Source: a virus. From it: a stretch of DNA of 23,069 bases. Below the pieces are notes generated by a model. The model was not told the origin of the DNA and did not search any database. It saw only the letters and a list, made by a program, of their open reading frames with translations. The stretch lies in the IMG/VR virus record IMGVR_UViG_3300025098_000307, positions 1 to 23,069 of that record; one strand, 5' to 3'. This document shows, piece by piece, positions 1 to 12,000 of the stretch (its first letter is position 1; every line of letters begins with the position of its first letter). The position numbers and the translations under genes are program-made.

Positions 1-123
1 TTTCTTGAGCCATGTTACCAAGTCCTGTCGAGCTTCTCTGATTTCTGCCTGCGCTTCATCGATAGCTTTGTCTGCCGAATCATGCGCGTCTTTGATTGCT
101 TTTTCTACGTTCTTCTTAGCCAT
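1..123 (-). CDS. Coiled-coil small protein, 3' end missing
   Basis: The first 41 codons of a gene that runs off the left edge of the window. The ATG is at 123 and is preceded by a strong ribosome binding site, GAGGTG, six bases or so upstream. The visible part begins MAKKNVEKAIKDAHDS and is almost entirely charged and alanine-rich, with the spacing expected of an amphipathic helix or coiled coil. It lies ten bases downstream of the SSB-like gene, so it is the most distal visible member of the leftward recombination operon. I do not recognise the family, and function cannot be assigned without the missing C-terminus. Confidence 0.7.
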   Translation of the reverse strand, partial: MAKKNVEKAIKDAHDSADKAIDEAQAEIREARQDLVTWLKK

Positions 124-133
124 GCTTCACCTC

Positions 134-433
134 TTAGAATGGTACGTCTTGTGATAGGAAATCATCTTGCTTCTTAGCCTGACCGCCTTCAGTGTAGATA
201 ACCTTGCAGTTACCTAGAATAGGTGGTCGCTCTGCACCAGACTCGCGCTCTTCTTTATCCTGAGACTGTGCAATAAAGCCATGATTGCCATACTGATCTT
301 CTTCAGTTGGGTTGATAAAGGTAGTCAGGTTTACATACTTAGCCACTGACCCATCTTTTTTAGTTACTTCTTTAATGCGTGACTTGTCAATCTTTGTCAC
401 ATCTATAGATACTGAGATTCCTATTTTACTCAC
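134..433 (-). CDS. Probable phage single-stranded DNA-binding protein
   Basis: A 99-residue protein starting MSKIGISVSIDVTKIDKSR. The N-terminal 75 residues read as a compact beta-rich domain (alternating hydrophobics in SVSIDVTKI and YVNLTTFI). The C-terminus is acidic and ends DDFLSQDVPF, like the acidic Asp-Phe-type tips (DDDIPF) by which bacterial SSB proteins recruit partners. The start overlaps the stop of the YqaJ exonuclease gene in an ATGA junction (430-433), so the two are probably translationally coupled. Context beside an exonuclease and an annealing protein supports a role in coating single strands during phage recombination or replication. The OB fold itself is inferred, not seen; an anti-nuclease or other small partner is the alternative. 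Confidence 0.6.
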   Translation of the reverse strand: MSKIGISVSIDVTKIDKSRIKEVTKKDGSVAKYVNLTTFINPTEEDQYGNHGFIAQSQDKEERESGAERPPILGNCKVIYTEGGQAKKQDDFLSQDVPF

Positions 434-1026
434 GTTAAATTCCTCACTTCTGATTTGATTTCCTCTACGGCTAGGTTTATTTGCTTAGCCAGTTTCTCTA
501 TAAACTCTTCATTGCGCTCTACTCTTACAACAAAGGGCTTCATATCAGGGTGGTATGACATAAAGTCCCACCATTCTCTGCCTGTAATATACAAACAACC
601 CTGTACCTGAGCATAGTGCTTACTCGGACATTCGCCCTTTCTGCTCCATGCTATGTGGTTCTTTGGTGCAGGGCATTTAAACTCAACACCCCCATCTTCA
701 CCAATCAATCCATCAGGGCTACAACCAAACTCTCCTGAGTCATCTAGTATAAACCCTACTTCTTCTACGTCAACACTGTGCATCAACTCATACATTGCGC
801 GAGCTTCAGGCTCTAACTCTGTACCTCTCTGCATCCATTCATTAACGTAGATTGGCTCTGATTCGCCCAGTATTCTTTCAGCTATTAAGATGTTTATGTA
901 TTCATCTGCTGATGCACTAGGCTTCCCTGCCGTAGTGATTAGTTTAGAGAACTGACTAGCACTGGGTCTGCCTAACCTAGCATCTAGCCATTCCTGTGTA
1001 CCTTGATCAGCTTGAAGTATTTGCAA
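430..1026 (-). CDS. YqaJ-family viral recombination exonuclease
   Basis: A 198-residue nuclease of the YqaJ / lambda-exonuclease (PD-(D/E)XK) family, which resects double-stranded ends to give single strands for an annealing protein. Family marks are clear: QGTQEWLDARLG near residues 8-19 followed by SAS, GTELEPEA near 68-75, the catalytic Asp in CSPDG (about D105), the E-x-K pair in VEFKCP (E115, K117), and the YAQVQGCLYITG segment downstream. The only start that keeps the QGT motif is TTG at 1026, with GGAG about eight bases upstream; it lies 20 bases inside the end of the annealing-protein gene. The low-efficiency TTG may set a lower level than the annealing protein. Family assignment is firm; the start is inferred from the motif and the binding site. 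Confidence 0.92.
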   Translation of the reverse strand: MQILQADQGTQEWLDARLGRPSASQFSKLITTAGKPSASADEYINILIAERILGESEPIYVNEWMQRGTELEPEARAMYELMHSVDVEEVGFILDDSGEFGCSPDGLIGEDGGVEFKCPAPKNHIAWSRKGECPSKHYAQVQGCLYITGREWWDFMSYHPDMKPFVVRVERNEEFIEKLAKQINLAVEEIKSEVRNLT

Positions 1027-1558
1027 CTTTCTTCTCCAACATTGCTAATGCTCTATCATACTGCGCCACTGACATATCATCTACAGTCTTGCACTTGAAC
1101 ACTTGGCAGAACTTCTTAACATCGCTCTCTGTAGCCTGTAACAATCCCTTTAACTTAGCTGACTGCTCTTCACTGATAGGTGTATCCAATACCGCTAACG
1201 GTAGGTCTTCACCTGCGTAGATGTAATGCCCCAAGCCAAACATAGCAATACACTTAACTAGACAGCGCATTCTAGCATCACTCACATCTCTTGATGTTGG
1301 GTTTACTACTGCCTTGTTCCTGTTATCCATCACTGGTAGCCACATACGTCTGGTGATACCGTCAACAGTCAACTCCACCTCTACCTCAACAGTACCATTC
1401 TGGTCTATGTTAGGCTCAAAGTAGCAGTAACTAGCATCAGGGTAATACTTCATCAGTGTACCCCAAGCATATGCCCATGAAAGGTAACTCAAGTTACCCT
1501 TCTTCTCGATGTTTTTAGATACGTCAATCGCTGACAGTGTTGTCCATACGTTACTCAT
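1007..1558 (-). CDS. DUF1071-type single-strand annealing protein
   Basis: A 183-residue protein beginning MSNVWTTLSAIDVSKNIEKK with the typical DUF1071 stretch LSYLSWAYAWGTLMKYYPDA near residues 22-42, then a beta-rich middle (TVEVEVELTVDG) and the conserved SDARMRCLVKCIAMFGLGHYIYAGEDL segment near 90-120, which recalls the RecT/Erf/Rad52-like annealing fold. Its neighbour is the YqaJ exonuclease, the standard pairing of resection nuclease with annealing protein in phage recombination systems. It starts with ATG at 1558, sharing one base with the stop of the upstream small gene (TAATG). The C-terminal 60 residues are helical and probably flexible. Assignment to DUF1071 rests on recognised motifs; biochemical activity is inferred from family and context. 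Confidence 0.82.
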   Translation of the reverse strand: MSNVWTTLSAIDVSKNIEKKGNLSYLSWAYAWGTLMKYYPDASYCYFEPNIDQNGTVEVEVELTVDGITRRMWLPVMDNRNKAVVNPTSRDVSDARMRCLVKCIAMFGLGHYIYAGEDLPLAVLDTPISEEQSAKLKGLLQATESDVKKFCQVFKCKTVDDMSVAQYDRALAMLEKKVANTSS

Positions 1559-1740
1559 TATGCACCCCCTAAGATTTGTTGAAATTGTTTCTCACTATAC
1601 CATGTAGCACTAGCCTCTTTAGCATATGCATCTGCATAGCCGAAGTAGTAGGCTTCTGGCTCACACTCGCGGGCAGGATGACCGTGTATACAGTCGAACT
1701 CGCCCTTCTCATAATCATTTAGTTTGCTTAAATCACTCAT
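1558..1740 (-). CDS. Small hypothetical protein in recombination operon
   Basis: A 60-residue protein, MSDLSKLNDYEKGEFDCIHG at its N-terminus, rich in acidic, tyrosine and alanine residues (GYADAYAKEASATWY). It has two cysteines (FDCIHGHPARECEPE) and two histidines between residues 17 and 27, close enough for a single metal site, though the spacing matches no motif I know. Its start overlaps the preceding gene by eight bases and its stop overlaps the annealing-protein start, so it is translated as part of the leftward operon. I do not recognise the family. Small proteins in this position are often host-takeover or recombination-modulating factors, but nothing here shows that. Confidence 0.65.
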   Translation of the reverse strand: MSDLSKLNDYEKGEFDCIHGHPARECEPEAYYFGYADAYAKEASATWYSEKQFQQILGGA

Positions 1741-2077
1741 ATCTCATCTCCATTTGTGTAATGTGTTCGTTGATGTAATCAACAGTTATCTGGTTAAGGT
1801 ATGATACAGATGCCTCAACTAGTTTACCAATCTCTTCATAGTTTTCGTCAGCCAGTGCCTGCAAAACTTGCTGATGATATTCTTCTATAAAGCCTAAATC
1901 ACCTAGATACTCACCTATAAAGGCATCTTGTAGCAAGCCTGCATCATTACGCATGATGTCAATAGAGTATCTCCAAGCTGTTTCTGTAACTTCTGCGTCA
2001 CTAGATGTGGTGGTGATGAGAGGGAACTGTGTTTCTGCCCTGTTGAAGTTGTATTCTTCAAATATTATTGGTTTCAT
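1733..2077 (-). CDS. Hypothetical acidic protein, first gene of leftward operon
   Basis: A 114-residue protein when started at the ATG at 2077 (MKPIIFEEYNFNRAE). The open frame extends upstream to an ATG at 2107, but that codon lies inside the -10 box of the leftward promoter and has no ribosome binding site, whereas 2077 is preceded by GAGGA at good spacing; 2077 is therefore the better start. The body is strongly acidic and helical (YEEIGKLVEASVSYLNQ), with no membrane segment or catalytic motif that I can see. It is the first gene of the leftward recombination operon and overlaps the next gene by eight bases. I do not recognise the family; its position fits an early regulatory or host-interaction protein, which is inference. 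Confidence 0.65.
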   Translation of the reverse strand: MKPIIFEEYNFNRAETQFPLITTTSSDAEVTETAWRYSIDIMRNDAGLLQDAFIGEYLGDLGFIEEYHQQVLQALADENYEEIGKLVEASVSYLNQITVDYINEHITQMEMRYE

Positions 2078-2105
2078 TTGTGTGTCCTCATGTTTGTGTA
2101 CTGAC

Positions 2106-2134
2106 ATATTAGTTAATGTTTACACCTATGTCAA
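2106..2134 (-). promoter_or_regulatory. Leftward early promoter
   Basis: On the minus strand a perfect TTGACA -35 box (2129-2134) is followed by a 17-base spacer and TAATAT (2106-2111, four of six matches to TATAAT). The predicted start near 2099 leaves a short leader ending in GAGGA before the ATG at 2077. Position and orientation fit the promoter of the leftward recombination operon. Confidence 0.65.
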
Positions 2135-2139
2135 TATTT

Positions 2140-2158
2140 ATTTGCAAATTAATTTACA
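2140..2158. promoter_or_regulatory. Candidate operator palindromes of the divergent control region
   Basis: ATTTGCAAAT (2140-2149) is a perfect ten-base palindrome, and TGCAAATTAATTTACA (2143-2158) is a sixteen-base palindrome with one mismatched pair. Both cover the -35 box and spacer of the rightward promoter. The half-site TTTRCA also occurs at 2119-2124, within the leftward promoter spacer. This arrangement is what a Cro/CI-type dimer would bind; the adjacent regulator at 2196 is the obvious candidate ligand. Binding is inferred. Confidence 0.4.
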
Positions 2159-2170
2159 TTGATATATGAT
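2142..2170 (+). promoter_or_regulatory. Rightward early promoter
   Basis: TTGCAA (2142-2147, four of six matches), a 17-base spacer and TATGAT (2165-2170, five of six) precede the regulator gene at 2196. The predicted start near 2177 is followed by AAGGAG at 2185-2190. It lies head to head with the leftward promoter, with seven bases between the two -35 boxes. Confidence 0.55.
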
Positions 2171-2195
2171 AGGTACAAATCACTAAGGAGATAAC

Positions 2196-2402
2196 ATGGA
2201 TATTAACAAATCATTAGATCATTTTATGAAAGAACACCGCATGACACAGGCAGATATAGCTAGAGAGGGTGGGTTGTCCCCTGCTACTGTCAGTTTGATT
2301 AGGAATAACCACAGAGAACCAAGCTGTGCCACCCTGATTGCATTGTCAGACCTATTCCAAGTACCAGTAAGCGACTTTATCAGGGCAGGTGAACATGGAT
2401 AA
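2196..2402 (+). CDS. Cro/CI-like XRE-family transcriptional regulator
   Basis: A 68-residue, single-domain DNA-binding protein. The helix-turn-helix lies near residues 16-38 (MTQADIAREGGLSPATVSLI), followed by the usual helices of the XRE/Cro fold (CATLIALSDLFQVPVSDFI). There is no C-terminal cleavage or oligomerisation domain of the CI/LexA type, so it is Cro-sized. AAGGAG sits five bases before the ATG. It is the first gene of the rightward operon, next to a divergent promoter pair with palindromic candidate operators, so it probably represses one or both early promoters. Its 3' end overlaps the replication initiator start by eight bases. A second, CI-like repressor is not seen in the window. 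Confidence 0.85.
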   Translation: MDINKSLDHFMKEHRMTQADIAREGGLSPATVSLIRNNHREPSCATLIALSDLFQVPVSDFIRAGEHG

Positions 2403-3108
2403 GAAAGGTTACTACGCAATCATCCCTGCTAACGTCAGATACGATGAGAGTCTAACGCCTAACGCCAAACTTTTATATGGTGAGATCACTGCACTTTGCA
2501 ATGAGAAAGGATATTGTTGGGCAACTAATGGATACTTTGCAGAACTATATAACGTCAGTAAGGTATCTATTAGTAAATGGATAGGTAGTCTTAAAGACGC
2601 AGGCTACGTCAGCATTGAGATGGAGCAGGATGGGGGTACTAAACAAATCTTAAATAGGTATATAAGATTAGTTAATGACCCTATTAAAGAAAAGTTAAAT
2701 ACCCCACAAAGAAAAGTTAATGGGGGTATTAAAGAAAAGTTTAAGGATAATAATACAGTTAATACTACATCTAATATTACAGTTAATAATATAGATCATT
2801 TTGAATCATTCTGGAGTGTTTACCCAAGAAAGGTTGGCAAGGCGCAAGCTAGGAAATCATGGGATAAGCTCAAACTGAATGACGATACTGTAAAGATGAT
2901 AGCAGAGAACATTGCATTGAGGATTAAGTATGGCGAGTGGAGTGATGCTAACAAAACATTCATACCCCATGCGTCAACCTATCTCAACAATGCAAGGTGG
3001 GAAGATGAGGTCGAAGCCCCTACACTAACTAACGTGGCGAAAAAACCGAATCAAATAAAGAAACGCGATATTGAAGTCGCACTAACCGATAGATCATGGG
3101 CAAACTAG
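2395..3108 (+). CDS. Phage replication initiator (lambda O-like helix-turn-helix protein)
   Basis: A 237-residue protein. Residues 1-80 form a winged-helix domain of the phage replication-protein type (KGYYAIIPANVRYDESLTPN, then ISKWIGSLKDAGYVSIEM). A low-complexity linker near residues 82-131 is rich in Lys and Asn. The C-terminal part carries FWSVYPRKVGKAQARKSW, a signature recurrent in phage O-type replication proteins. The linker DNA holds a phased repeat array, as lambda O carries its origin inside its gene. I chose ATG at 2395 (AGG ending five bases upstream); GTG at 2389 would add two residues. No helicase or helicase loader is recognisable nearby, so the protein presumably recruits host DnaB directly or through one of the small downstream proteins. 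Confidence 0.8.
   Translation: MDKKGYYAIIPANVRYDESLTPNAKLLYGEITALCNEKGYCWATNGYFAELYNVSKVSISKWIGSLKDAGYVSIEMEQDGGTKQILNRYIRLVNDPIKEKLNTPQRKVNGGIKEKFKDNNTVNTTSNITVNNIDHFESFWSVYPRKVGKAQARKSWDKLKLNDDTVKMIAENIALRIKYGEWSDANKTFIPHASTYLNNARWEDEVEAPTLTNVAKKPNQIKKRDIEVALTDRSWAN
2641..2788 (+). repeat. Iteron-like array, candidate replication origin inside initiator gene
   Basis: The 13-mer AAAGAAAAGTTAA occurs at 2686-2698 and 2708-2720, with a one-mismatch copy at 2731-2743 and degenerate copies (three mismatches each) starting at 2641 and 2663. The start-to-start distances are 22, 23, 22 and 23 bases, about two helical turns. An AT-rich stretch follows with two exact copies of TACAGTTAATA at 2754-2764 and 2778-2788. 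The middle copy is flanked by an eight-base inverted repeat (AATACCCC / GGGGTATT). The copies fall in different reading frames (KEKLN versus QRKVN), so the repeat is conserved as DNA, not as protein. Iterons followed by an AT-rich block inside the initiator gene is the lambda origin plan. Confidence 0.65.
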
Positions 3109-3117
3109 GAGTAATAA

Positions 3118-3375
3118 ATGTCTGAATACAATATACCATCTGACCTTTTTGAGCGCAGATACGATGCATATAAGAGCCATCCTGCATACAACGTGATAAT
3201 ACAATTACATCGCGCGTCTATGGCTATGGACTTTATGCAAATCAAGTTGGATATTGAAAGTGATGGACTGACTGACTTAAAAGAAATACTGGATAATTTA
3301 ATAAATTGCTTTATAGAGTTTGATGCAAGCAAAAAAGACTGGGATGAACACTTCCAATATAGGAGAATACAATGA
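3118..3375 (+). CDS. Small hypothetical early protein
   Basis: An 85-residue, mostly helical protein with mixed charge (MSEYNIPSDLFERRYDAYKS at the N-terminus; acidic middle LDIESDGLTDLKEILDNL). It has no signal peptide, membrane segment or recognisable motif. TAGGAG precedes the ATG by seven bases, and the stop overlaps the next start in an ATGA junction, so it belongs to the rightward early operon between the replication initiator and small DNA-binding proteins. A helicase-loading role has been taken by small proteins in this position in lambdoid phages, but no P-like motif is visible here. Function unknown. Confidence 0.65.
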   Translation: MSEYNIPSDLFERRYDAYKSHPAYNVIIQLHRASMAMDFMQIKLDIESDGLTDLKEILDNLINCFIEFDASKKDWDEHFQYRRIQ

Positions 3376-3590
3376 CACAATCAGAGAGAGTATTAAAATA
3401 TTTAGAAGATGGTAAGAAGCTAACCTGCCTGAATGCTTTTGAGGAGCTAGGCATTACACAAGTGGCGGCTCGAATCTTTGAGCTGAAAGAGAAAGGTCAC
3501 GACATAAAGACCAACAGAAGAAAGGTAACTAACCGTTACAATGAGATCTGTAGCGTAGCTGAATACTACATGGAGAGAAAATATGACTAA
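3372..3590 (+). CDS. Small winged-helix DNA-binding protein
   Basis: A 72-residue protein with the compact pattern of the small phage helix-turn-helix family often listed as HTH_39: MTQSERVLKYLEDGKKLT, then ALITQ-like helix (FEELGITQVAARIFELKEKG) and a basic wing (TNRRKVTNRYN). It is likely a DNA-binding accessory or regulator. It starts at an ATGA overlap with the preceding gene and ends inside the start of the next gene (eight-base overlap), so expression is coupled within the rightward early operon. The family assignment is from pattern memory; target sites cannot be read from this window. Confidence 0.65.
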   Translation: MTQSERVLKYLEDGKKLTCLNAFEELGITQVAARIFELKEKGHDIKTNRRKVTNRYNEICSVAEYYMERKYD

Positions 3591-3924
3591 CTATCAGAAG
3601 GCTAAAAAGCATGGCGGCATCAAAGGCTATAAGTATGTAGGCACTGAGAGTGATAAGTTTGTTACTGGTAACTACTACACTTATGAAGATATGAGTGAGC
3701 TTACAGGGCTGAGTGAGCATACACTTAGGTCTCGCATGGTGAAGAACAAGCTAAAAGAGAATGGCGAGAAAGTAATCACTGACTTACAGCTTATGCCAAA
3801 GAGAAAGCCGTTTACCAATCTTGATGGAACTAAATCACGTTATGTTTTAGGTCAAGACAATATCAAGAGATGTGAGACACAATCAGAAATTATGATGAAC
3901 AAATATTTGAGGTTAGCGTTATGA
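3583..3924 (+). CDS. Small protein with MerR/excisionase-like helix-turn-helix segment
   Basis: A 113-residue basic protein. Residues around 28-50 (YTYEDMSELTGLSEHTLRSR) resemble the first helices of MerR- or excisionase-like winged domains, where a Leu-Thr-Gly-Leu-Ser turn precedes the recognition helix. The remainder is Lys-rich (QLMPKRKPFTNLDGTKSRY) without other motifs. GGAG lies seven bases before the ATG. It overlaps the preceding gene by eight bases and the NinB-like gene by four (ATGA). Possible roles are transcription control of late genes or an excision factor; the sequence does not decide between them. Confidence 0.55.
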   Translation: MTNYQKAKKHGGIKGYKYVGTESDKFVTGNYYTYEDMSELTGLSEHTLRSRMVKNKLKENGEKVITDLQLMPKRKPFTNLDGTKSRYVLGQDNIKRCETQSEIMMNKYLRLAL

Positions 3925-4364
3925 ATGGTGCCGCTTGGACTGTCAACTGTCCTAAGAAACTCACAATGTATAAAGAATTTGTCGAGCAAATGTATGAGAA
4001 GCATAAGTACATTACGTTTGAATACAAGCTAGGTAAGCCTAGGAGTATTAAGCAAAACAATGCTATGTGGGTATTCTGTAAGGAGATAGCCAAGCGGTGC
4101 AATGATGCAGGGTTTCCTTGCATGATAAGTAGTCCTGTTTTAACAAAAGATATTGAAGCACCGTGGACTGACCGCAGTGTAATGGACTTGATATGGATGA
4201 CAGTACAGCGCGCTATGTATCCTGAGAAGGATGAAAGTAGTAGGCAGTTGTCTACAGATGAAGTATCGTTAGTAGCTGAAACAATAACCAGACACCTAGC
4301 AGAGAAGTACAAACTATATGTTACATTCCCTACAAAGGATTTTAAGAATGGCAATAAAGCGTGA
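3921..4364 (+). CDS. NinB-like recombination mediator
   Basis: A 147-residue protein with the layout of lambda NinB (Orf): a short beta-rich N-terminus, a central RSIKQNNAMWVFCKEIAKRC (about residues 33-52) comparable with the RSLDQN-x-x-LW stretch of lambda NinB, and a C-terminal helical region ending LYVTFPTKDFK. NinB binds single-stranded DNA and helps load recombinases, acting at forks and breaks. Here it sits directly before an HNH nuclease, echoing the ninB-ninG neighbourhood of lambdoid phages. The start is an ATGA overlap with the preceding gene. The family call rests on this motif and gene order; overall similarity to lambda NinB is low. Confidence 0.65.
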   Translation: MNGAAWTVNCPKKLTMYKEFVEQMYEKHKYITFEYKLGKPRSIKQNNAMWVFCKEIAKRCNDAGFPCMISSPVLTKDIEAPWTDRSVMDLIWMTVQRAMYPEKDESSRQLSTDEVSLVAETITRHLAEKYKLYVTFPTKDFKNGNKA

Positions 4365-4737
4365 TGCGGCAGACAAGTGGTTTAGTGATGTAGTTAGGAA
4401 GAAAGCAGGTCATGTGTGTGAAAGCTGTGGAAAGGTAGAAGGCAGGATGGAGTGCGCTCACATCTATGGAAGGTCGGCTAAGTCAGTGAGGTGGTCAATG
4501 GACAATGCAGTATGTCTGTGCCATTACTGTCACATGCAGTTCACTGCCAACCCACTAGAGTTTACAGCGTGGTTGGAAGAGACTTTAGGCGAGGGACACA
4601 TGGAGATGCTGAGAGAGAAGTGGCAAGTCCTGATGAAGACGAACAAGCAGTTAAGAAAAGAAATAGCAAAACATTACAGGGAAGAATTTAAGAAGATGGA
4701 TCAAGATGAAACCTATGAACCAGTAAGTTATAACTGA
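4348..4737 (+). CDS. HNH endonuclease, NinG/Rap-like by position
   Basis: A 129-residue nuclease starting MAIKRDAADKWF. It carries a zinc-binding C24-x2-C27, the catalytic-type AHI (H38), an Asn at about 53, and C58-x2-C61-H62, the order expected of a zinc-finger HNH domain. The C-terminus is a charged helix. The frame is open further upstream, but ATG 4348 has AGGA at suitable spacing, and the longer form would only add ten residues read from inside ninB. It overlaps the NinB-like gene by 17 bases. Next to NinB, an HNH protein may play the role of lambda NinG (Rap), a structure-specific recombination nuclease. A free-standing homing-type or restriction-like nuclease is the alternative, made less likely by the tight operon packing. 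Confidence 0.8.
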   Translation: MAIKRDAADKWFSDVVRKKAGHVCESCGKVEGRMECAHIYGRSAKSVRWSMDNAVCLCHYCHMQFTANPLEFTAWLEETLGEGHMEMLREKWQVLMKTNKQLRKEIAKHYREEFKKMDQDETYEPVSYN

Positions 4738-4745
4738 GGTGTGAT

Positions 4746-4985
4746 ATGAGTGATCAAATATTAGGCATTATGTTTGACAAGATAGACCAGTATGGGCTGA
4801 CTGATATACGTGAAGAGTTAATCAATGTAATAGATGCGGCTGTGTATAACAATGCTAGTGGCTATGCTAGATATGAAATAGCAAAGTTGTGGGATCAGGT
4901 TGAAGAAGAGATAGCTAAACAGTCTGAGCCACCCACGGAAGAGCAATTAAGTCTTGAACATCCTGAGATGTTTGATATAGAATAG
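4746..4985 (+). CDS. Small acidic hypothetical protein
   Basis: A 79-residue, strongly acidic protein (C-terminus EEQLSLEHPEMFDIE) with no membrane segment or known motif. GAGGTG sits a few bases before the ATG. It is the last gene of the rightward early operon and is followed, about 40 bases on, by a strong intrinsic terminator. Acidic proteins of this size in early phage operons often act as DNA mimics or as partners of host enzymes, but nothing in the sequence specifies that here. Confidence 0.6.
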   Translation: MSDQILGIMFDKIDQYGLTDIREELINVIDAAVYNNASGYARYEIAKLWDQVEEEIAKQSEPPTEEQLSLEHPEMFDIE

Positions 4986-5023
4986 AAATACATATCCCCT
5001 AGTATGTGTAGTATGTCCACTTT

Positions 5024-5049
5024 GCCCCATGTATTTGGGGCTTTTTTTT
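5024..5049 (+). terminator. Intrinsic terminator ending the rightward early operon
   Basis: The stem GCCCCA (5024-5029) pairs with TGGGGC (5036-5041) around a six-base loop, and eight T residues follow (5042-5049). This is a textbook rho-independent terminator on the plus strand; the minus strand lacks a matching T tract. It separates the early operon from the small basic gene cluster. Confidence 0.85.
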
Positions 5050-5057
5050 GGTATAAT
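5049..5057 (+). promoter_or_regulatory. Extended -10 promoter for the small basic gene cluster
   Basis: TGGTATAAT is a perfect extended -10 (TG-N-TATAAT) whose first base is the last T of the terminator tract. No convincing -35 lies at 16-18 bases, as is usual for extended -10 promoters. With TATAAT ending at 5057, transcription should start at about 5064, the A of the ATG of the first gene, implying a leaderless or nearly leaderless transcript. Confidence 0.55.
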
Positions 5058-5063
5058 AGGGCA

Positions 5064-5339
5064 ATGTCTAAGTCCCTATTAAAACGTATTGGCGTATCAG
5101 GTTATAACAAGCCTAAGCGCACCCCATCCCACCCTACTAAGTCTCATGTAGTAGTGGCAAAGTCTGGCGATAAAGTAAAAACCATTCGCTACGGTCAACA
5201 AGGCGTATCAGGAGCAGGCAGTAACCCAAAGACTGCTAAGCAAAAGGCTAGACGCAAATCATTCAAAGCTCGCCATGCTAAGAACATCGCTAAAGGTAAG
5301 ATGTCTGCGGCATACTGGGCAAACAAATCAAAGTGGTAG
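5064..5339 (+). CDS. Very basic small protein 1 (DUF6321-like)
   Basis: A 91-residue protein beginning MSKSLLKRIGVSGYNKPKRT. By eye it has 18 Lys and 6 Arg against a single Asp and no Glu, with a Lys/Arg-rich middle (KQKARRKSFKARHAK) and the end MSAAYWANKSKW. I recall this pattern from small proteins of many marine phages grouped as DUF6321. The frame is open upstream to 5004, but that would start before the terminator; ATG 5064 is the start implied by the extended -10 and by the family N-terminus. AGGG lies only two or three bases upstream, too close for a normal binding site. The charge suggests binding to DNA, RNA or the virion interior; function is unknown. Confidence 0.8.
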   Translation: MSKSLLKRIGVSGYNKPKRTPSHPTKSHVVVAKSGDKVKTIRYGQQGVSGAGSNPKTAKQKARRKSFKARHAKNIAKGKMSAAYWANKSKW

Positions 5340-5348
5340 GAGATAACC

Positions 5349-5456
5349 ATGCCATACGGTAAAGGTACATACGGTTCTAAGGTGGGCAGACCGCCTAAGA
5401 AGAAAAAGAAAAAGTCATTACTAGGAATGGGCAATGGCAGTAAACGCGGCAGGTAA
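5349..5456 (+). CDS. Very basic 35-residue protein 2
   Basis: A 35-residue reading frame: it starts MPYGKGTYGSKVGRPPK, has six consecutive Lys near residues 17-22 and ends GSKRGR. By eye it has 12 basic and no acidic residues. AGGAG is seven bases before the ATG, a strong binding site for so short a gene. Its last 23 bases overlap the next gene in another frame. I recall closely similar MPYGKGTYG-type peptides in marine phage genomes, where they are usually missed because of their size. It is presumably intrinsically disordered and nucleic-acid binding, but that is inference. Confidence 0.7.
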   Translation: MPYGKGTYGSKVGRPPKKKKKKSLLGMGNGSKRGR

Positions 5457-5598
5457 TTATACCAAGCCAACCATGCGTAAGAACCTGTTTAACAGAATTA
5501 AAGCAGGGAGCAAGGGCGGTAATGCAGGGCAATGGTCAGCGCGTAAGGCGCAGATGCTTGCACGTATGTACAAAGCTAAAGGCGGTGGGTACAAGTAA
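5434..5598 (+). CDS. Very basic 54-residue protein 3
   Basis: A 54-residue frame starting MAVNAAGNYTKPTMRKNLF and continuing with a Gly/Lys/Arg-rich segment (IKAGSKGGNAGQWSARKAQM) and the end YKAKGGGYK. It has 12 basic and no acidic residues by eye. GGA lies about nine bases before the ATG, within the end of gene 2. The pattern is one I recall as conserved in many aquatic phages, often beside proteins like numbers 1 and 4. Its stop overlaps the next ATG by one base (TAATG at 5596-5600). Conservation of the residue pattern argues that it is a real gene despite its length; function unknown. Confidence 0.75.
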   Translation: MAVNAAGNYTKPTMRKNLFNRIKAGSKGGNAGQWSARKAQMLARMYKAKGGGYK

Positions 5599-5855
5599 TG
5601 CTTGCTAAATCACAGCGTAGCCTAAAGAAGTGGACTAAACAGGACTGGGGAACTAAATCAGGCAAACCTAGTACGCAAGGACCAAAGGCGACAGGGGAAA
5701 GATACCTGCCTAGAAAAGCAAGACAAGCACTCAGCCCTCAAGAGTATGCCGCCACATCAGCAAAGAAAAGAAGAGATACTGCCGCAGGAAAGCAGTATAG
5801 TTCTCAGCCTAAGAAGATTAAAAAGAAAGCCAGACGTAAATCCCTTTTAGCCTAG
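5598..5855 (+). CDS. Very basic small protein 4 (DUF5872-like)
   Basis: An 85-residue protein starting MLAKSQRSLKKWTKQDWGTK. It has about 25 Lys/Arg against 4 acidic residues and a C-terminal KKIKKKARRKSLLA tail. The central RYLPRKARQALSPQEYAATS stretch is a pattern I associate with DUF5872-type small proteins of phages. It begins at a TAATG junction with gene 3 and is the last gene of the cluster. Its TAG stop interleaves with the stop of the convergent endolysin gene in a CTAG (5852-5855), so there is no room for a terminator. A virion or DNA-associated role is suggested by charge only. Confidence 0.75.
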   Translation: MLAKSQRSLKKWTKQDWGTKSGKPSTQGPKATGERYLPRKARQALSPQEYAATSAKKRRDTAAGKQYSSQPKKIKKKARRKSLLA

Positions 5856-6196
5856 TATTGCCAGACCACTGGTGTAGTCTCTCTGATGTCCACATGGATG
5901 AATGTCTTAGCAACACCTATTCCTGTAAACCCTAGACGCATAGCCTCACGCACAATCTTATATCTTTCTGCACCACCAGAGACAGCAATGTCAGCCGCTA
6001 TACCCTGAGCGTGAGTTCCGGGCTTTGACTTACGAGCCTCGATAGGATGTGATGGATCTCTATAACCAGAAGTAATAATAAAACTAAAGCCACATGCTTC
6101 ACGCAACTCATCTAGCTTATGGATGAACTCTTCTTTCATCTCATTGTTGCTAGTACACTGGCAGTCAAACTCACTTAACTTAAAATACTTAAACAT
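5852..6196 (-). CDS. Endolysin, peptidase M15 family
   Basis: A 114-residue zinc peptidase that would cut peptide cross-links of peptidoglycan at lysis. The M15_3 pattern is complete: SGYRDPSHP (residues 43-51), the first zinc ligands in GTHAQGIAADI (H62 and D69), and the last in FIHVDIR (H101, with D103). The N-terminal FKYFKLSEFDCQ is the usual lead-in of this family. It has no signal peptide, so it needs a holin for release. GAGGTG precedes the ATG, and the start overlaps the previous stop (TAATG). It is the last gene of the late operon and ends head-to-tail against the small basic cluster. The family assignment is firm. Confidence 0.92.
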   Translation of the reverse strand: MFKYFKLSEFDCQCTSNNEMKEEFIHKLDELREACGFSFIITSGYRDPSHPIEARKSKPGTHAQGIAADIAVSGGAERYKIVREAMRLGFTGIGVAKTFIHVDIRETTPVVWQY

Positions 6197-6618
6197 TATT
6201 CACCTCGATACGGATTTGATAGGTAGTCCATGCCTTGCCAGATGGAATCTATTTCTTTATCAATCTTATCTAGCCTACCCTGTATCTTATCACTATTCTC
6301 TGTAGCTAACTCAGCTTTTTCTACAGTTACCTGCATCTCTGTGACTAGCTTCTCTACATCAACTACTCTTTCCTGCAGGGCTATCAATTCCTTTTGTCTT
6401 TCCATAATGGTTTCTAGGTTACTTCCTAAACCAACCAATTGTTCTTGCATCTCTGATGTATCAGGTATCTGTATAGCCTCTACAGTCTCTAGTCTTGAAT
6501 ACAAACTACTGGCTGTCCATACAGTACCCCCGATACTTGTACCTATCGTCAGGACAATGGCAATCCACACACCTTTGAGTTTAGTACCACCTATATTAAC
6601 TTCTGTATCAGCAAGCAC
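6196..6618 (-). CDS. Membrane-anchored coiled-coil protein of the lysis region
   Basis: A 140-residue protein with one hydrophobic segment at about residues 14-37 (GVWIAIVLTIGTSIGGTVW) followed by a long coiled coil (residues 40-130). The start is GTG at 6618, overlapping the upstream TAG stop (TAGTG), so it is coupled to the exported protein before it. The topology (short N-terminal tail, one membrane pass, periplasmic coiled coil) is that of an inner-membrane spanin or of a holin accessory protein. I find no embedded Rz1-like lipoprotein frame, so the spanin reading is not proven. Position immediately before the endolysin supports a role in lysis. Confidence 0.65.
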   Translation of the reverse strand: MLADTEVNIGGTKLKGVWIAIVLTIGTSIGGTVWTASSLYSRLETVEAIQIPDTSEMQEQLVGLGSNLETIMERQKELIALQERVVDVEKLVTEMQVTVEKAELATENSDKIQGRLDKIDKEIDSIWQGMDYLSNPYRGE

Positions 6619-7424
6619 TAGTATTCCTCACAGTAAAAACAATCGTCAGCAGTTGGTCCAGTCTGGTAGAACTCACCCTCTTGACCCGCACCTAAGACAT
6701 CAGCCGCACTTACAAACGCACCTTCTAAACTGTACATCATAACCACGTTAGTCGTATGGAATGACAAAGAAGCATACCCAGTAGATGAATCAAATGACGC
6801 ATCATAGGCATTCATAAAGTCATCACCCATCATATCTACTTCTGCCTGCATATCTTGTACTAAGCCTTCATCATTCTGCACAGCTACGAATGCGGCAAAG
6901 GTTTGGGCTGTCTCTTCCACTGTGTCGAGGGAATCATTGTAGGCATCAACATGTGTGTCAGTAATCTCAACATCATTGTTAGCAATGAATGACTGTATCT
7001 CTTGTGCCTGTACAGCATCACCACTCTCTTCTGTTTCTACCGCCATGTCATTAACAACAACAGCTTTGATCAATACCTCTGACGCGCCCACAAATGCGCT
7101 TACAGCCGTGTTAAGTTCCATCTTAGCCTGATCTACTTGTTCGTCTACAAACTCGTTAGCGGTCATTGTATAGACTGCTTGCGTTGTCATTTGTAAAGCA
7201 TCATTGTAGGCTTGAGCTTGCTCGTAAGTTAACTTGCTGTCATCTACGACACTATCGGGAGCAATCAATCCCTGATCAGATAATGTTTGTAGTGCAGATA
7301 CTCTCTGTATGCCTGAGTCGAACGTGTCAACAATGCTCTGGCTAGTATCAACTAAGTTAGATACATCAATGCTGTGGGCGGAAACGCTCAGACACGCTAA
7401 GATTGTCGCTAGTATCTTCTTCAT
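6618..7424 (-). CDS. Exported acidic protein of unknown function
   Basis: A 268-residue protein with a clear signal peptide (MKKILATILACLSVSAHS, likely cleaved before ID) and a long, acidic, Ala/Val-rich helical body (many Asp/Glu, few Lys/Arg) ending in a short cysteine-containing tail, DDCFYCEEY. The two C-terminal cysteines could form a disulphide in the periplasm. AGGGG lies about eight bases upstream of the ATG. The first 59 bases of the gene overlap the end of the preceding gene in another frame. A lipobox-like ILAC is present at residue 11 but is early for a lipoprotein. It may be a periplasmic or cell-surface factor such as a lysis or superinfection factor; no family is recognised. 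Confidence 0.65.
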   Translation of the reverse strand: MKKILATILACLSVSAHSIDVSNLVDTSQSIVDTFDSGIQRVSALQTLSDQGLIAPDSVVDDSKLTYEQAQAYNDALQMTTQAVYTMTANEFVDEQVDQAKMELNTAVSAFVGASEVLIKAVVVNDMAVETEESGDAVQAQEIQSFIANNDVEITDTHVDAYNDSLDTVEETAQTFAAFVAVQNDEGLVQDMQAEVDMMGDDFMNAYDASFDSSTGYASLSFHTTNVVMMYSLEGAFVSAADVLGAGQEGEFYQTGPTADDCFYCEEY

Positions 7425-7974
7425 CTATTGTTACCCCTATTCCTAGTAGTTGGTTGTAGTGTGTTTCTTTGTCTTCATAGTCAGGAATAAATAATGTCGG
7501 GTTATTCTTCATGGCTATAAAGGCATTCTTGCCAAAGACCATACGACCATTAACTAATATGGGGCATGGTGTTCCTGCGATAAACATGGCTGTCCAGTTA
7601 TTATTGTTCTGACACATACGCGATACTGCCGCGATAGACATGCCCATGTCTTTTAAAACCTTACTGTCTTTCCTTCTGTTACACTCTTCATCTTGTACGT
7701 ATCGACCACCATTAATACCTAAGACATCTATCTGCATACCTGCACTTGCAGACCGTAGACAAGTATCCTGACCTGATGACATAAGGGATGGAGATATAGC
7801 AGTGTTTACTGGGTTAGGCTTCCCTGCCCCTGCCCCTACGTTCTGGGTTGTAGTGCTTGTTGTAACATTATTACTGTTAACCGTAGAGTCTTGTGTGTTG
7901 TTGTTTAGATCACCGTTCTGTTGGCTGTCTGACGCATACACTGACACAGAGAATAACAGTAACAGCAGTCTCAC
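7366..7974 (-). CDS. Exported cysteine-containing protein
   Basis: A 202-residue protein with an N-terminal signal peptide (MRLLLLLFSVSVYA, cleavage likely before SDS), then an Asn/Thr-rich linker (residues 20-50), then a domain with four cysteines (in QDTCLRSAS, DEECNRRK, SRMCQNNN and GTPCPIL) spaced for two disulphides. I recall this QDTC...CQ...GTPCP pattern from proteins near the lysis genes of marine phages, but have no function for it. The start is GTG at 7974, overlapping the holin stop (GTGA), without a strong binding site, so translation probably depends on coupling. It shares 59 bases with the next gene, also exported. Confidence 0.7.
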   Translation of the reverse strand: MRLLLLLFSVSVYASDSQQNGDLNNNTQDSTVNSNNVTTSTTTQNVGAGAGKPNPVNTAISPSLMSSGQDTCLRSASAGMQIDVLGINGGRYVQDEECNRRKDSKVLKDMGMSIAAVSRMCQNNNNWTAMFIAGTPCPILVNGRMVFGKNAFIAMKNNPTLFIPDYEDKETHYNQLLGIGVTIDEEDTSDNLSVSERFRPQH

Positions 7975-8342
7975 TTACGCAAACTCATCAGCTTAGATAC
8001 GCCCTTGATGCCAAACGAACTAGAGATAGCTATGAATAGTAGATACTGATACCACTCTGGTAAGTTAGACAAGGCAACAAAGCCATCCTCTACCCTGTCT
8101 ATAACCGTAGTGTCATTTACTACTATTGCGTAACCAATCATAAAGATAGGCACAGCTAATACTAGTGTCCAGAACTCATCCTTCCATGAGTTAGTAGAAG
8201 CATCTACAGCTTTAGATTCCCAGTCACTATCACTCTGTATGACCTTCATCTTAGCCTCATGCTTGGCTTGCTTTTCTTCTGCCTTGTTCTTTAGGTAGCC
8301 ACCTGCAATGTTAGCAATAGGACCTATCAATGTTTGCCACAT
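7971..8342 (-). CDS. Probable holin (3-TM GTA-holin-like)
   Basis: A 123-residue membrane protein from ATG 8342 (MWQTLIGPIANIAGGYLKN). GGAG is six bases upstream; the frame could also start at TTG 8354, adding four residues, but the ATG has the better site. After an N-terminal hydrophobic helix and a charged segment it has two membrane helices at about residues 57-75 (FWTLVLAVPIFMIGYAIVV) and 97-115 (WYQYLLFIAISSSFGIKG). This layout matches the holin family known from gene-transfer agents. It would permeabilise the inner membrane to release the endolysin, which lies three genes downstream in the same operon. Holin is the best call; a membrane virion protein is possible. Confidence 0.7.
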   Translation of the reverse strand: MWQTLIGPIANIAGGYLKNKAEEKQAKHEAKMKVIQSDSDWESKAVDASTNSWKDEFWTLVLAVPIFMIGYAIVVNDTTVIDRVEDGFVALSNLPEWYQYLLFIAISSSFGIKGVSKLMSLRK

Positions 8343-8343
8343 A

Positions 8344-8565
8344 TTATACTCCAAGCACTCTCATCATGCCGCCTAAGCCAAAAGATTCTCCTACTATCAC
8401 AAGCCCAACACCAAGTGCTAACCACTTAATCTGAAGTAATGATCTGTTAATATTATGTAACTCATCTCTTAGTTCAGACGTTTGATTATGCAGTCTTGTT
8501 AGTTGTGCAGAGTGATTGTCTACACGCCACTCCAACTTGCTTACTCTTGGCTCTAAGTTTGACAT
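8344..8565 (-). CDS. Small coiled-coil membrane protein
   Basis: A 73-residue protein: a coiled-coil N-terminal half (LEWRVDNHSAQLTRLHNQ) and one C-terminal membrane helix (about residues 48-70, LALGVGLVIVGESFGLGG). GAGGAAGAAT precedes an ATG that overlaps the upstream stop. The end comes one base before the ATG of the holin gene. Its position suggests an antiholin or a holin partner, but it could also be a spanin-like or virion-associated peptide. No family is recognised with confidence. Confidence 0.6.
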   Translation of the reverse strand: MSNLEPRVSKLEWRVDNHSAQLTRLHNQTSELRDELHNINRSLLQIKWLALGVGLVIVGESFGLGGMMRVLGV

Positions 8566-8750
8566 TATTCTTCCTCAGACAGACCTTCTTTAATTGAGTT
8601 GGCATACGCACTTATAAGAACATTAAGCTCTTGCGCGCGCATTTCATATTGACCTAATTCATTGCGTAGTTCATTAACACGCTTTACTAAAACTACTTGC
8701 TCTTCACTTAGGTCATCTTCCGTGTACGTCTTGTCATCAATAGTAATCAT
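8565..8750 (-). CDS. Small coiled-coil protein
   Basis: A 61-residue protein started at ATG 8750 (MITIDDKTYTEDDLSEEQVV), which lies in a TAATG overlap with the stop of the DUF7936-like gene. A TTG at 8756 would add two residues but has no advantage. Nearly all of it is an acidic amphipathic helix. It has no membrane segment. It sits between the tail-fibre-associated gene and the small membrane proteins; a chaperone or adaptor role is conceivable, but no evidence separates the options. Confidence 0.6.
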   Translation of the reverse strand: MITIDDKTYTEDDLSEEQVVLVKRVNELRNELGQYEMRAQELNVLISAYANSIKEGLSEEE

Positions 8751-9037
8751 TACCAAGGTGTCCCTGTTAGTGTTGATGGTGTTGCTTGTTCCGCTAGGTC
8801 AGCATCAAGATTAGCCTCGATGTCTGCTGTGTCTAAGTCAGCTTCTACCCAAGCAATTACATTAGCTTCAGTTAGTGAGTCAAATGCCACATAACCTTCA
8901 GCAGTTGTGTCTGGGAAGAAAGAACAAGTACCATAAGATGATGCTGTGTTTTCTCCAGATGTTTTACTAACACGCCAGTGTACTACTTTAACGCCACCGT
9001 CTGTGTTTCTTTCAAGTTCTTCTATTGTGAAGTTCAT
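8750..9037 (-). CDS. DUF7936-like small tail-fibre-associated protein
   Basis: A 95-residue protein. Residues 1-55 are beta-rich (KVVHWRVSKTSGENTASSYG, then FDSLTEANVIAWVEADLD), the pattern I associate with DUF7936 proteins next to tail fibre genes of T7-like marine phages. The C-terminus is acidic and Ala-rich, ending TPSTLTGTPW. It is the gene directly downstream of the tail fibre and may be a fibre-assembly or fibre-tip partner; that role is inferred from position. The assignment is from memory of the motif. Confidence 0.6.
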   Translation of the reverse strand: MNFTIEELERNTDGGVKVVHWRVSKTSGENTASSYGTCSFFPDTTAEGYVAFDSLTEANVIAWVEADLDTADIEANLDADLAEQATPSTLTGTPW

Positions 9038-9055
9038 TAAGTTTTCTCCAGTTGT

Positions 9056-12000
9056 TTACCAAGATGCCAGTGCGGCACGTTTCCAAGTGTTTGTTGCTAC
9101 ACAAACATACATGTAGTCACTATCATAGCATATTTCGCCTTTGTTACCTGTTGCTGTAGCAGACGCCGGTGTTTTTGAGTTTCGTAATCTAAGTGTATCA
9201 CCATTAATATCTAAAAGGTTTGTAGGGGAAGTTGTGGCAATACCAACCATTCCATTTGCGGCTACACACATTCGTGTTTGTGTGTTAACTCTAAACTCCA
9301 TTTTATTATAGTAATGACTATAAATTAATCCACCTGCGTCATTATCCGCAGTGTCACCAAAATATATACCGCCACTGCCATAAGTATTAGAGGCTAATTG
9401 TATATAGGCACTTCCATTAGTATTTCTTCCTTGTATAACAGTACTAGCGGGGGCAGATGTTGCGTTACCACCGCCATGTGCAGTAATCCTTGCTGAAGGA
9501 GCAGTAGTGCCTACCCCTAAATAACCACTTGAGTTGAGACGCATCGCTTCCGAGCCATAATTCCTAAACGCCATCGAGCCGCCACCATGACTAACCGCTA
9601 TTCCTGCTCTTGATGCACTAAAGCTATTACCAAAATAAAGTGCGGCAGAGTTATAAGTTCCTGACCCCATCTGTAAAGTATTACTGCCAGAACTATCAAA
9701 GAATACAGTAGAGTTTGAATCTGGCGTTATGCCTGACGAGCCAGATGAAACATGCAGTTTAGACGAGGGGGTAGTAGTACCTATACCTACGTTGCCAGAT
9801 GAGTCAATACGCATACGTTCAGTAAATGCCTCATCCGAATAAAAAGTTGTAGCACCACTTATACTGCCTATGAGTGTAGAGCCACCTGTTTCTTTTAGCT
9901 GTATATATGCTTCTGCATCACTAGACTCAAACTTAGAAACAACATTTGTTGCTCCTGAATTAACGTGTAAAGATTGTGTTGGACTAGTAGTACCTATGCC
10001 TAATCTGCCTAATGAGTCGATACGCATACGTTCAGAGCCACTTACATCAAAACGAACACCAGCCGCACTTGAATGTATTTTATTGGTTGTATCGTTATCC
10101 TTTAAATATATTGATACTGTGTCGTCAGTTGACTGAAACTGTGCTGAAACATTGTTTGTTCCTGAATTAACGTCTAAAGCATAAGCAGGACTAGAAGTAC
10201 CTATACCTACGTTTCCAGAAGTATGAATACTAATCGCTTCATTGACCTGCCCGCTTGTTTGACCTGTTGTAGCCTCAATAACAGTTCTAGGATTACCAGT
10301 AGCATTGCTTTTAATTTTTAAGGCTGACTTCCAATGAGAACCAGTGTCACTGCCCATCTGAACAGCAATACCACCATCTTGGCTTGATGAATAACTCCCT
10401 GCTTTAACAACAAGTTTTTCATCAGGACTACTAGTACCTATACCTACATTGCCTAACTGATTAATACGCATCATCTCCGAGCCATCTAACTGAAATATAG
10501 TAGATGTCCCATTAGATGCATTTGCTCTATCAGCCTCTAATATAAGAGAACCATTATTGTTTCTAATGTAGCTAGAGCCGTTTGCATCTTTTAAATGTAT
10601 GTCTGCGTATTGGTCTGCACTTTCTATTCTCAGCCCCTCGTCAGCTTGCCCTGAAAAAACGTGCAAAGCTGTAGCAGGACTAGCAGTGCCTATACCCACT
10701 TTTCCATTAGAGGCAATACGCATGGCTTCGCTACCACCATTAACCCATAGGGTTTGATTACTTCCTGCAAACCTCATGTATGTGTCGGTGTCACCACCTG
10801 CGCCAATATAGTTGGTATAGACTTTGTTTGATAGGTAGAGGTCTTTCCATCGCTTGCTTGAACTGCCTAAGTCATGTGCGCTATCTGTGCCTGATAATAT
10901 ATTACCTGATGCGGTAATCCCGCCAGTAACGTCTATACCTGTGGATGTTGTCTTAAATTTCTCATCACCATTATAACGTAGGCTACACTCTGCACCTGTT
11001 TTAAACTCAGCTAATTGGTTGCTGTTGGCACTGTCATAAAAATTAACTTGTGACCCATTAGTGTGTAGAGATAAATCACCACTACCAGTTTCCATAATTA
11101 TAGACTGTCCATTGTTACCATTATGCAAAATCTGTAACTCATTATTATCCCCAAAGGTAGCGTGTACGTTATCCGCTAGGTCTACACCTGTAGCTGTACC
11201 GCCACCACCGCCACCACCAGAAGCATTTATAGTAGTAAATATTGTTCCACCATCTTGCTGTGTTAGCGTAAGGGTATTGCCAGAATAACTAACCCCTGTG
11301 ATGTGGTTGCTATATGCAGTATTCCAGTTGCTATCGTTGTAGCCTGTAGCAGACAATGTCCCTGTAACACTTATACCTGTGTTAGTGGTTGCCAACTTAG
11401 CAGCATTATCATAGTAAAGAGTAACAGCACCATTAGCCTGTCCCTGAATAACATCTTCGCCATCAGAGGTTTGGATACGTACATCAGTACCTTTAATTAT
11501 AAGATGCCCTAACCCTGTTTCTTCAATAACACTAGTGTCATATACATCTTTATATATATCTAAATTTGGCAGGGAGATTCTACCAGAGGCAAACACTAAG
11601 TTGCCTGTTAATGTGCCGCCTGATAACGGTAAATAACGACCATCTAAGCTAGTAGATATAGTTCCGCCATCTTGTTGGGTCAGCGTGTAGTTACCACCAC
11701 TAAATGACGCAGAGGTAATCATGTTGTTGTATGCGGCATTCCAGTTGCTATTATTATTGTCTGATGTTTCAGGCAAGCCAGTAGTAGCATTAAATCCTAA
11801 CAGCTTTCCTTTACGGTCATCCTTGCTAGGCAATTCCATATTGCCTGTAGTAGCATCATCATCTTGTAAACGTAGCGATCTATTAATAGCTGTTTGCTGT
11901 TGATTAGAAGCAAGCCATAAACGATCAAAATCATTGTTAACATCTGATGCCGCAAACAAGCCAGACTGTTGATAGTTAGTATCTCTATCTAAGTCCATTG

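Follow-up and report, generated by a model that had tools for sequence, protein, structure and literature searches.

Phage lambda transcribes a leaderless cI mRNA from the promoter PRM, and to our knowledge no terminator is fused to cI or PRM. Lambda or its cI has been named as an example of leaderless phage mRNA (PMC3160421, PMC9031893), phage transcripts are often leaderless (PMC5312081), and leaderless promoters have been predicted in the Cluster O mycobacteriophages PL1 and PR2 (PMC4351075). Moreover, in many bacteria a -10 element next to the open reading frame (ORF) gives rise to leaderless mRNA (PMC3160421), and in Deinococcus-Thermus the distance from such elements to ORFs whose mRNA is leaderless is 6-7 bp (PMC12340547).

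We analyzed a virus record of 23,069 bases, possibly a fragment (hereafter the window), in which a hairpin, a T tract and a -10-like element abut the ATG of a gene for a small basic protein. Like the TA-led and other leaderless genes described in bacteria, this block has a -10-like hexamer ~6-7 bases from the ORF, preceded by TG as noted for TA-led genes of low-GC genomes (PMC3160421, PMC12340547), and like lambda cI its predicted transcript would be a leaderless phage mRNA (PMC9031893). It also resembles ordinary intrinsic terminators in having a GC hairpin and a T tract, but its T tract is common to the next promoter. Unlike the block, the surveys of bacterial TA-led genes report no terminator fusion (neither PMC3160421 nor PMC12340547 uses the word "terminator" in its main text), while the PL1 and PR2 promoters are divergent and lie in an AT-rich intergenic region, with no terminator fusion mentioned in the available portion of that paper (PMC4351075). 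No description of a terminator-fused leaderless phage promoter was found in the accessible part of the open-licence literature, outside which most subscription journals lie. Leaderless genes that have a -10 right beside them are an established kind, of which the conserved terminator-fused phage cassette is a new form.

The block stands between a rightward operon (2196-4985) and four small basic-protein genes (Table 1). The operon encodes a replication initiator, NinB- and NinG-like proteins, a 79-aa protein that matched no Pfam or PHROGs family, and a small protein that we take, from its translation, to be XRE-like; the operon would be "early", judging from gene content only. The minus strand carries at 2106-2134 a promoter-like TTGACA-17-TAATAT that points leftward and overlaps a leftward ORF at its first ATG (2107), suggesting that the real start of this ORF lies further in. 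The genes 3' of the four basic genes (5064-5855) run leftward, the rightmost of them encoding tail and major head proteins, and the basic-gene module meets the first leftward gene tail to tail, overlapping at 5852-5855. From 5855 to 11733 the terminator scan lists none in the rightward direction, so RNA begun at 5064 may extend, as antisense, into those leftward genes. Isolates offered no close genome: among 73 capsid-relative records, which also include pelagiphages and vibriophages, the nearest were Methylophilales phage MEP301 (42%) and the Dunaliella "virus" SI2 (41%). The basic protein at 5064 had no PDB sequence match, and its AlphaFold model (mean pLDDT 49.9) was too low in confidence for use.

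Table 1. Features of the window at and around the block.
Feature	Position	Strand	Remarks
Last gene of upstream rightward operon, 79 aa	4746..4985	+	Conserved neighbour in 45/80 NinG loci
Putative terminator stem-loop GCCCCA-TGTATT-TGGGGC	5024..5041	+	Hairpin kept with different sequences in relatives
T8 tract	5042..5049	+	Final T doubles as the first base of the TG element
Predicted extended -10 element TG-G-TATAAT (TGGTATAAT)	5049..5057	+	T5049, G5050, G5051, TATAAT 5052-5057
Inverted repeat TAATAGGG (5054-5061) / CCCTATTA (5074-5081) around start codon	5054..5081		Strong in window clade only
Six-base discriminator AGGGCA	5058..5063	+	Blocks rich in G from -5 to -2; every block has spacing 6 or 7
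Basic-protein gene, 91 aa, PHROG 7595	5064..5339	+	ATG 5064-5066; predicted +1 = A5064
Second small basic protein, 35 aa	5349..5456	+	With Shine-Dalgarno site
Third small basic protein, PHROG 17747	5434..5598	+	
Fourth small basic protein, PHROG 14910	5598..5855	+	End overlaps convergent gene 5852-6196

The hairpin (-12.4 kcal/mol; z = -3.0 against 200 shuffles), with five GC pairs followed by T8, was listed first of nine terminators in a scan of positions 1-12000, and as a stable GC hairpin directly abutting a T tract it has the form of an intrinsic terminator. TGN stands immediately 5' of TATAAT, as in extended -10 promoters, and the -35 position, at 17 bases, reads ATGTAT (2/6 matches), so that by sequence there is no consensus -35. 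The -10-like element lies ~6-7 bases from the start codon, as in TA-led leaderless genes; because its last T is 7 bases 5' of A5064, the usual -7 to +1 register, the +1 is predicted on the A of the ATG. The initial annotation had located the stem, T8, TG-N-TATAAT and ATG as in Table 1, and all of these coordinates match the window sequence. It had further proposed that the T tract supplies the T of the TG element, which holds at T5049, and that AGGG is too close to the ATG for a normal binding site: this run (5058-5061), the only purine run near the ATG, leaves a gap of 2 bases, and the best anti-Shine-Dalgarno pairing is -2.8 kcal/mol, which leaves 5064 without a Shine-Dalgarno site, as expected of a leaderless gene. 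We put at roughly 85% the probability that terminator, extended -10 and leaderless start are united in one block. The promoter assignment assumes that the host uses the sigma-70 consensus.

The motif TGNTATAAT alone was not above chance in the window (2 observed vs 1.91 expected), nor were sigma-70-like sites enriched over 1-12000 (23 observed vs 30.5 expected). The argument against chance rests on conservation. The second TGGTATAAT of the window (5456-5464, minus strand) lies inside coding sequence and carries synonymous changes in close relatives; it was not conserved and was rejected as an element, and thus serves as a within-window negative control. On conservation, a chance motif at the block was rejected, although TGNTATAAT by itself is not rare.

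Conservation was assessed with NinG, a query independent of the block, over the best 80 of 162 viral relatives, each on a different contig; the query found no locus in bacterial genomes. The gene for the 79-aa neighbour was present in 45 of these 80 loci, and the other 35 had neither neighbour nor block. The 45 window-type loci comprise 36 with the block (TGNTATAAT 6-7 bases before ATG), three with the gene but no block, four that end before the site (L120, L134, L135 and L151) and two without a basic gene; the block thus precedes 36 of 39 readable gene starts, where L125 is cut inside the gene, L146 retains only a 21-aa remnant of it, and the counts are not independent events because the loci are related. 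In the three genes without the block (L122, L123 and L128), the -10 is missing and a GGAG Shine-Dalgarno site is present; L123 and L128, with the same gene order, have a terminator with a weaker AATTTTTT tail and GGAG before the ATG, and L122 has the same sequence. That loci of like gene order gain a Shine-Dalgarno site when they have no -10 favours a leaderless start at the block.

Counting against the preferred reading, most family members outside this group lack the block, the examined isolates among them. In five loci (L017, L025, L035, L067 and L080), a hairpin-like stretch and a pyrimidine tail (TCTTTTCTTT or similar) abut the basic-gene ATG, with neither a -10 nor a Shine-Dalgarno site before the gene. 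Elsewhere, GGTATAATCGGATGATG stands before a 60-aa gene in NinG-related phages (L144, L145, L148, L157, L159, L160, L173, L181 and L183), possibly another leaderless start, and in L027 and L031 TGGTATAAT lies 3 bases before an ATG ORF, the related proteins beginning MED.VT.ELYYNNYF.

The block is also separable from its gene. It precedes another basic gene, DUF6321 (PF19846), in L131 and L136 (the Pfam scan covered L131 only); L131 and L139 have nearly identical blocks but different next genes (DUF6321 vs the PHROG 7595 type), and in L255 block and gene are placed after a different operon. Furthermore, L170 has kept the terminator and lost both -10 and gene, while L153, a case that speaks against the preferred reading, retains the terminator and TGCTATAAT although nothing rightward follows them; the element can therefore persist after its gene is gone. 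L153, L170 and L146 show states of decay.

With all loci up to L310 pooled, 34 distinct blocks precede a PHROG 7595-type gene or DUF6321: a T tract is present at spacing 6 in 31 and at spacing 7 in one, and the remaining two (L002 and L003) have spacing 6 but no T tract; eight of the 34 are biased towards the pattern because they were found by a pattern scan. The hairpins vary widely, from GCCCC...GGGGC to ACCCTGTC...GACAGGG and GGCCCTAATTGTT...AGCGATTAGGGC, with about ten or more types in use, yet always lie directly 5' of the T tract where there is one. Among 32 distinct blocks, aligned by choosing those with TATAAT at spacing 6, TG at -15/-14 was present in 32/32, -13 was variable and -5 to -2 was G-rich; the invariant TG with a free -13 is the mark of a TGN extended -10, on this sequence evidence a predicted one. 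No -35 was conserved: 0/29 blocks reached 5/6 matches and two reached 4/6. The reading of the initial annotation, a fusion of terminator, extended -10 and leaderless start, gains support from the conservation of TG and TATAAT on either side of one variable base, the fixed spacing of 6 and rarely 7 bases, the hairpins maintained with varied sequence, and the lack of both -35 and Shine-Dalgarno site.

Spacing was counted from TGNTATAAT to ORFs that begin with ATG and encode 60 aa or more. At the 94 distinct TGNTATAAT sites of the window and L002-L191, spacing 6 occurred in 27, all of which precede a PHROG 7595-type gene or DUF6321, and spacing 7 in two, while the other spacings from 0 to 40 occurred 0-2 times each. 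Start-site choice generally varies by 1-2 bases. The promoter could be real and its start shifted by a few bases (e.g. to 5058-5063 or inside the gene), giving a tiny leader or a later start codon, as spacing 7 in two distinct blocks might suggest. However, with a leader the distance from -10 to ATG would have no reason to hold at 6-7, and base -1 varies freely (A, C, T or G) in the aligned blocks; we regard a shifted start as unlikely.

Shine-Dalgarno sites are common in the window: 22 of 33 gene starts have anti-Shine-Dalgarno pairing of -5.5 kcal/mol or better (two of the 33 rows, 4351 and 5350, sit 1-3 bases away from where the gene truly starts). Across loci, pairing of -4.5 kcal/mol or better was found at 0/35 distinct block starts vs 46/86 starts without the block (Fisher p = 1e-9, relatedness ignored), a count on which it bears that the block fills the place a Shine-Dalgarno site would occupy; the remaining 40 of the 86 starts without the block also lack a good site. 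These counts weigh against the view that there is only a terminator, with TATAAT an AT-rich coincidence and the basic genes read by leaky termination and translated from leadered RNA. In favour of this view, chance would give about two copies of the bare 9-mer per window, and L123 and L128, with weaker tail and GGAG site, look so arranged. On the other hand, no block start has a good Shine-Dalgarno site, the spacing is fixed and TG conserved over many hairpin types, and in L002 and L003 the -10 occurs where there is no terminator, which makes this view quite improbable, though the same two loci also count against the preferred reading. The comparison favours a genuine extended -10 promoter, joined to a terminator, whose product is most likely a leaderless mRNA.

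The same junction was found before unrelated genes. A scan of viral contigs, an arbitrary sample, for T7-GNTATAAT-N1-14-ATG gave at least 120 stretches. Among the viral matches listed, spacing 6 occurred in 23/48 distinct sites with an ORF of at least 40 aa, in 17/22 of those whose hairpin reaches at least -8 kcal/mol, and in 14/39 once the basic-protein family was removed (p = 2e-7 against a flat 1-14 spread, a rough null). Junction examples among these matches are L193 (PHROG 10504), L246 and L205 (PHROG 1574), L235 and L242, and most of ten junctions examined have same-strand ORFs nearby upstream. A -35 (TTGACA, TTGACG or TTGACT) lies within the terminator hairpin in L235 and L209, both outside the basic-protein family, and in L252 and L268 (a spacer of 17 was measured for L235 and L209, with TTGACA/TTGACG; L252 and L268 were read by eye), so that terminator and promoter are interleaved there. 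In contigs of bacterial genomes, again an arbitrary sample, spacing was 6 in 10/37 and 6-8 in 23/37, one example being the junction before lspA of Lactococcus insecticola (L330). The element might be read not by the main sigma of the host but by a polymerase or alternative sigma factor that the phage encodes, whose gene could lie outside because the 23 kb record may be a fragment; but the element is the exact ordinary TGN-TATAAT consensus and the same junction is found upstream of bacterial genes, lspA of Lactococcus among them, and we consider such a reader very improbable. Finally, the protein might begin upstream in frame (ATG 5004 or 5013) and run through ...FFWYN..., the window frame being open from 5004 and the 6-base spacing keeping TTT-TTT-TGG-TAT-AAT in frame, but this coding extension was rejected, its chance being close to nil, on missing upstream in-frame starts (L089, L133, L140, L002 and L003), a spacing of 7 that breaks the frame in L089/L140, and N-termini that align at the ATG.

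Under the preferred reading, a fused terminator and promoter with a leaderless start, the intrinsic terminator would end the rightward operon (genes to 4985) and its T tract would lead straight to an extended -10 promoter that has no -35. A host-type sigma-70 RNA polymerase would presumably start at the A that opens the ATG (A5064), and the leaderless mRNA would cover the small basic-protein genes (5064-5855). The purpose is likely compact double insulation, with upstream transcription stopped and read-through RNA poorly translated: since read-through RNA would present an internal AUG without a Shine-Dalgarno site, the basic protein would be made mainly from its own promoter. Leaderless initiation may keep genes silent on read-through or leaking upstream transcripts (PMC3160421). 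The inverted repeat around the ATG, perfect over 8 bases in the window, strong in its clade and weaker in L002, L003 and L150, exceeds re-pairings (0/500 as good, a comparison confounded by relatedness); formable only in read-through RNA, it may conceivably add a further layer of insulation in this clade, or it might instead be an operator. More tentatively, and with the odds somewhat against it, the junction of terminator, extended -10 and AUG could be a repeatedly evolved "insulated leaderless" cassette of phages and some bacteria, in which a 40-base block ends an operon and leaves the next gene translatable solely from its own start site.

The block appears to belong to a group of uncultured, mostly marine phages, in which a known type of gene start has been put to a use that is rare in phages and kept by evolution. 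The signature of hairpin, T tract, TGNTATAAT, 6 bases and ATG predicts leaderless phage genes in uncultured viruses, whose starts may be misplaced by gene callers that expect Shine-Dalgarno sites. Moreover, the junction is a compact natural part for testing whether a leaderless start shields genes from read-through expression, and makes the published idea of silence on read-through transcripts (PMC3160421) directly testable.
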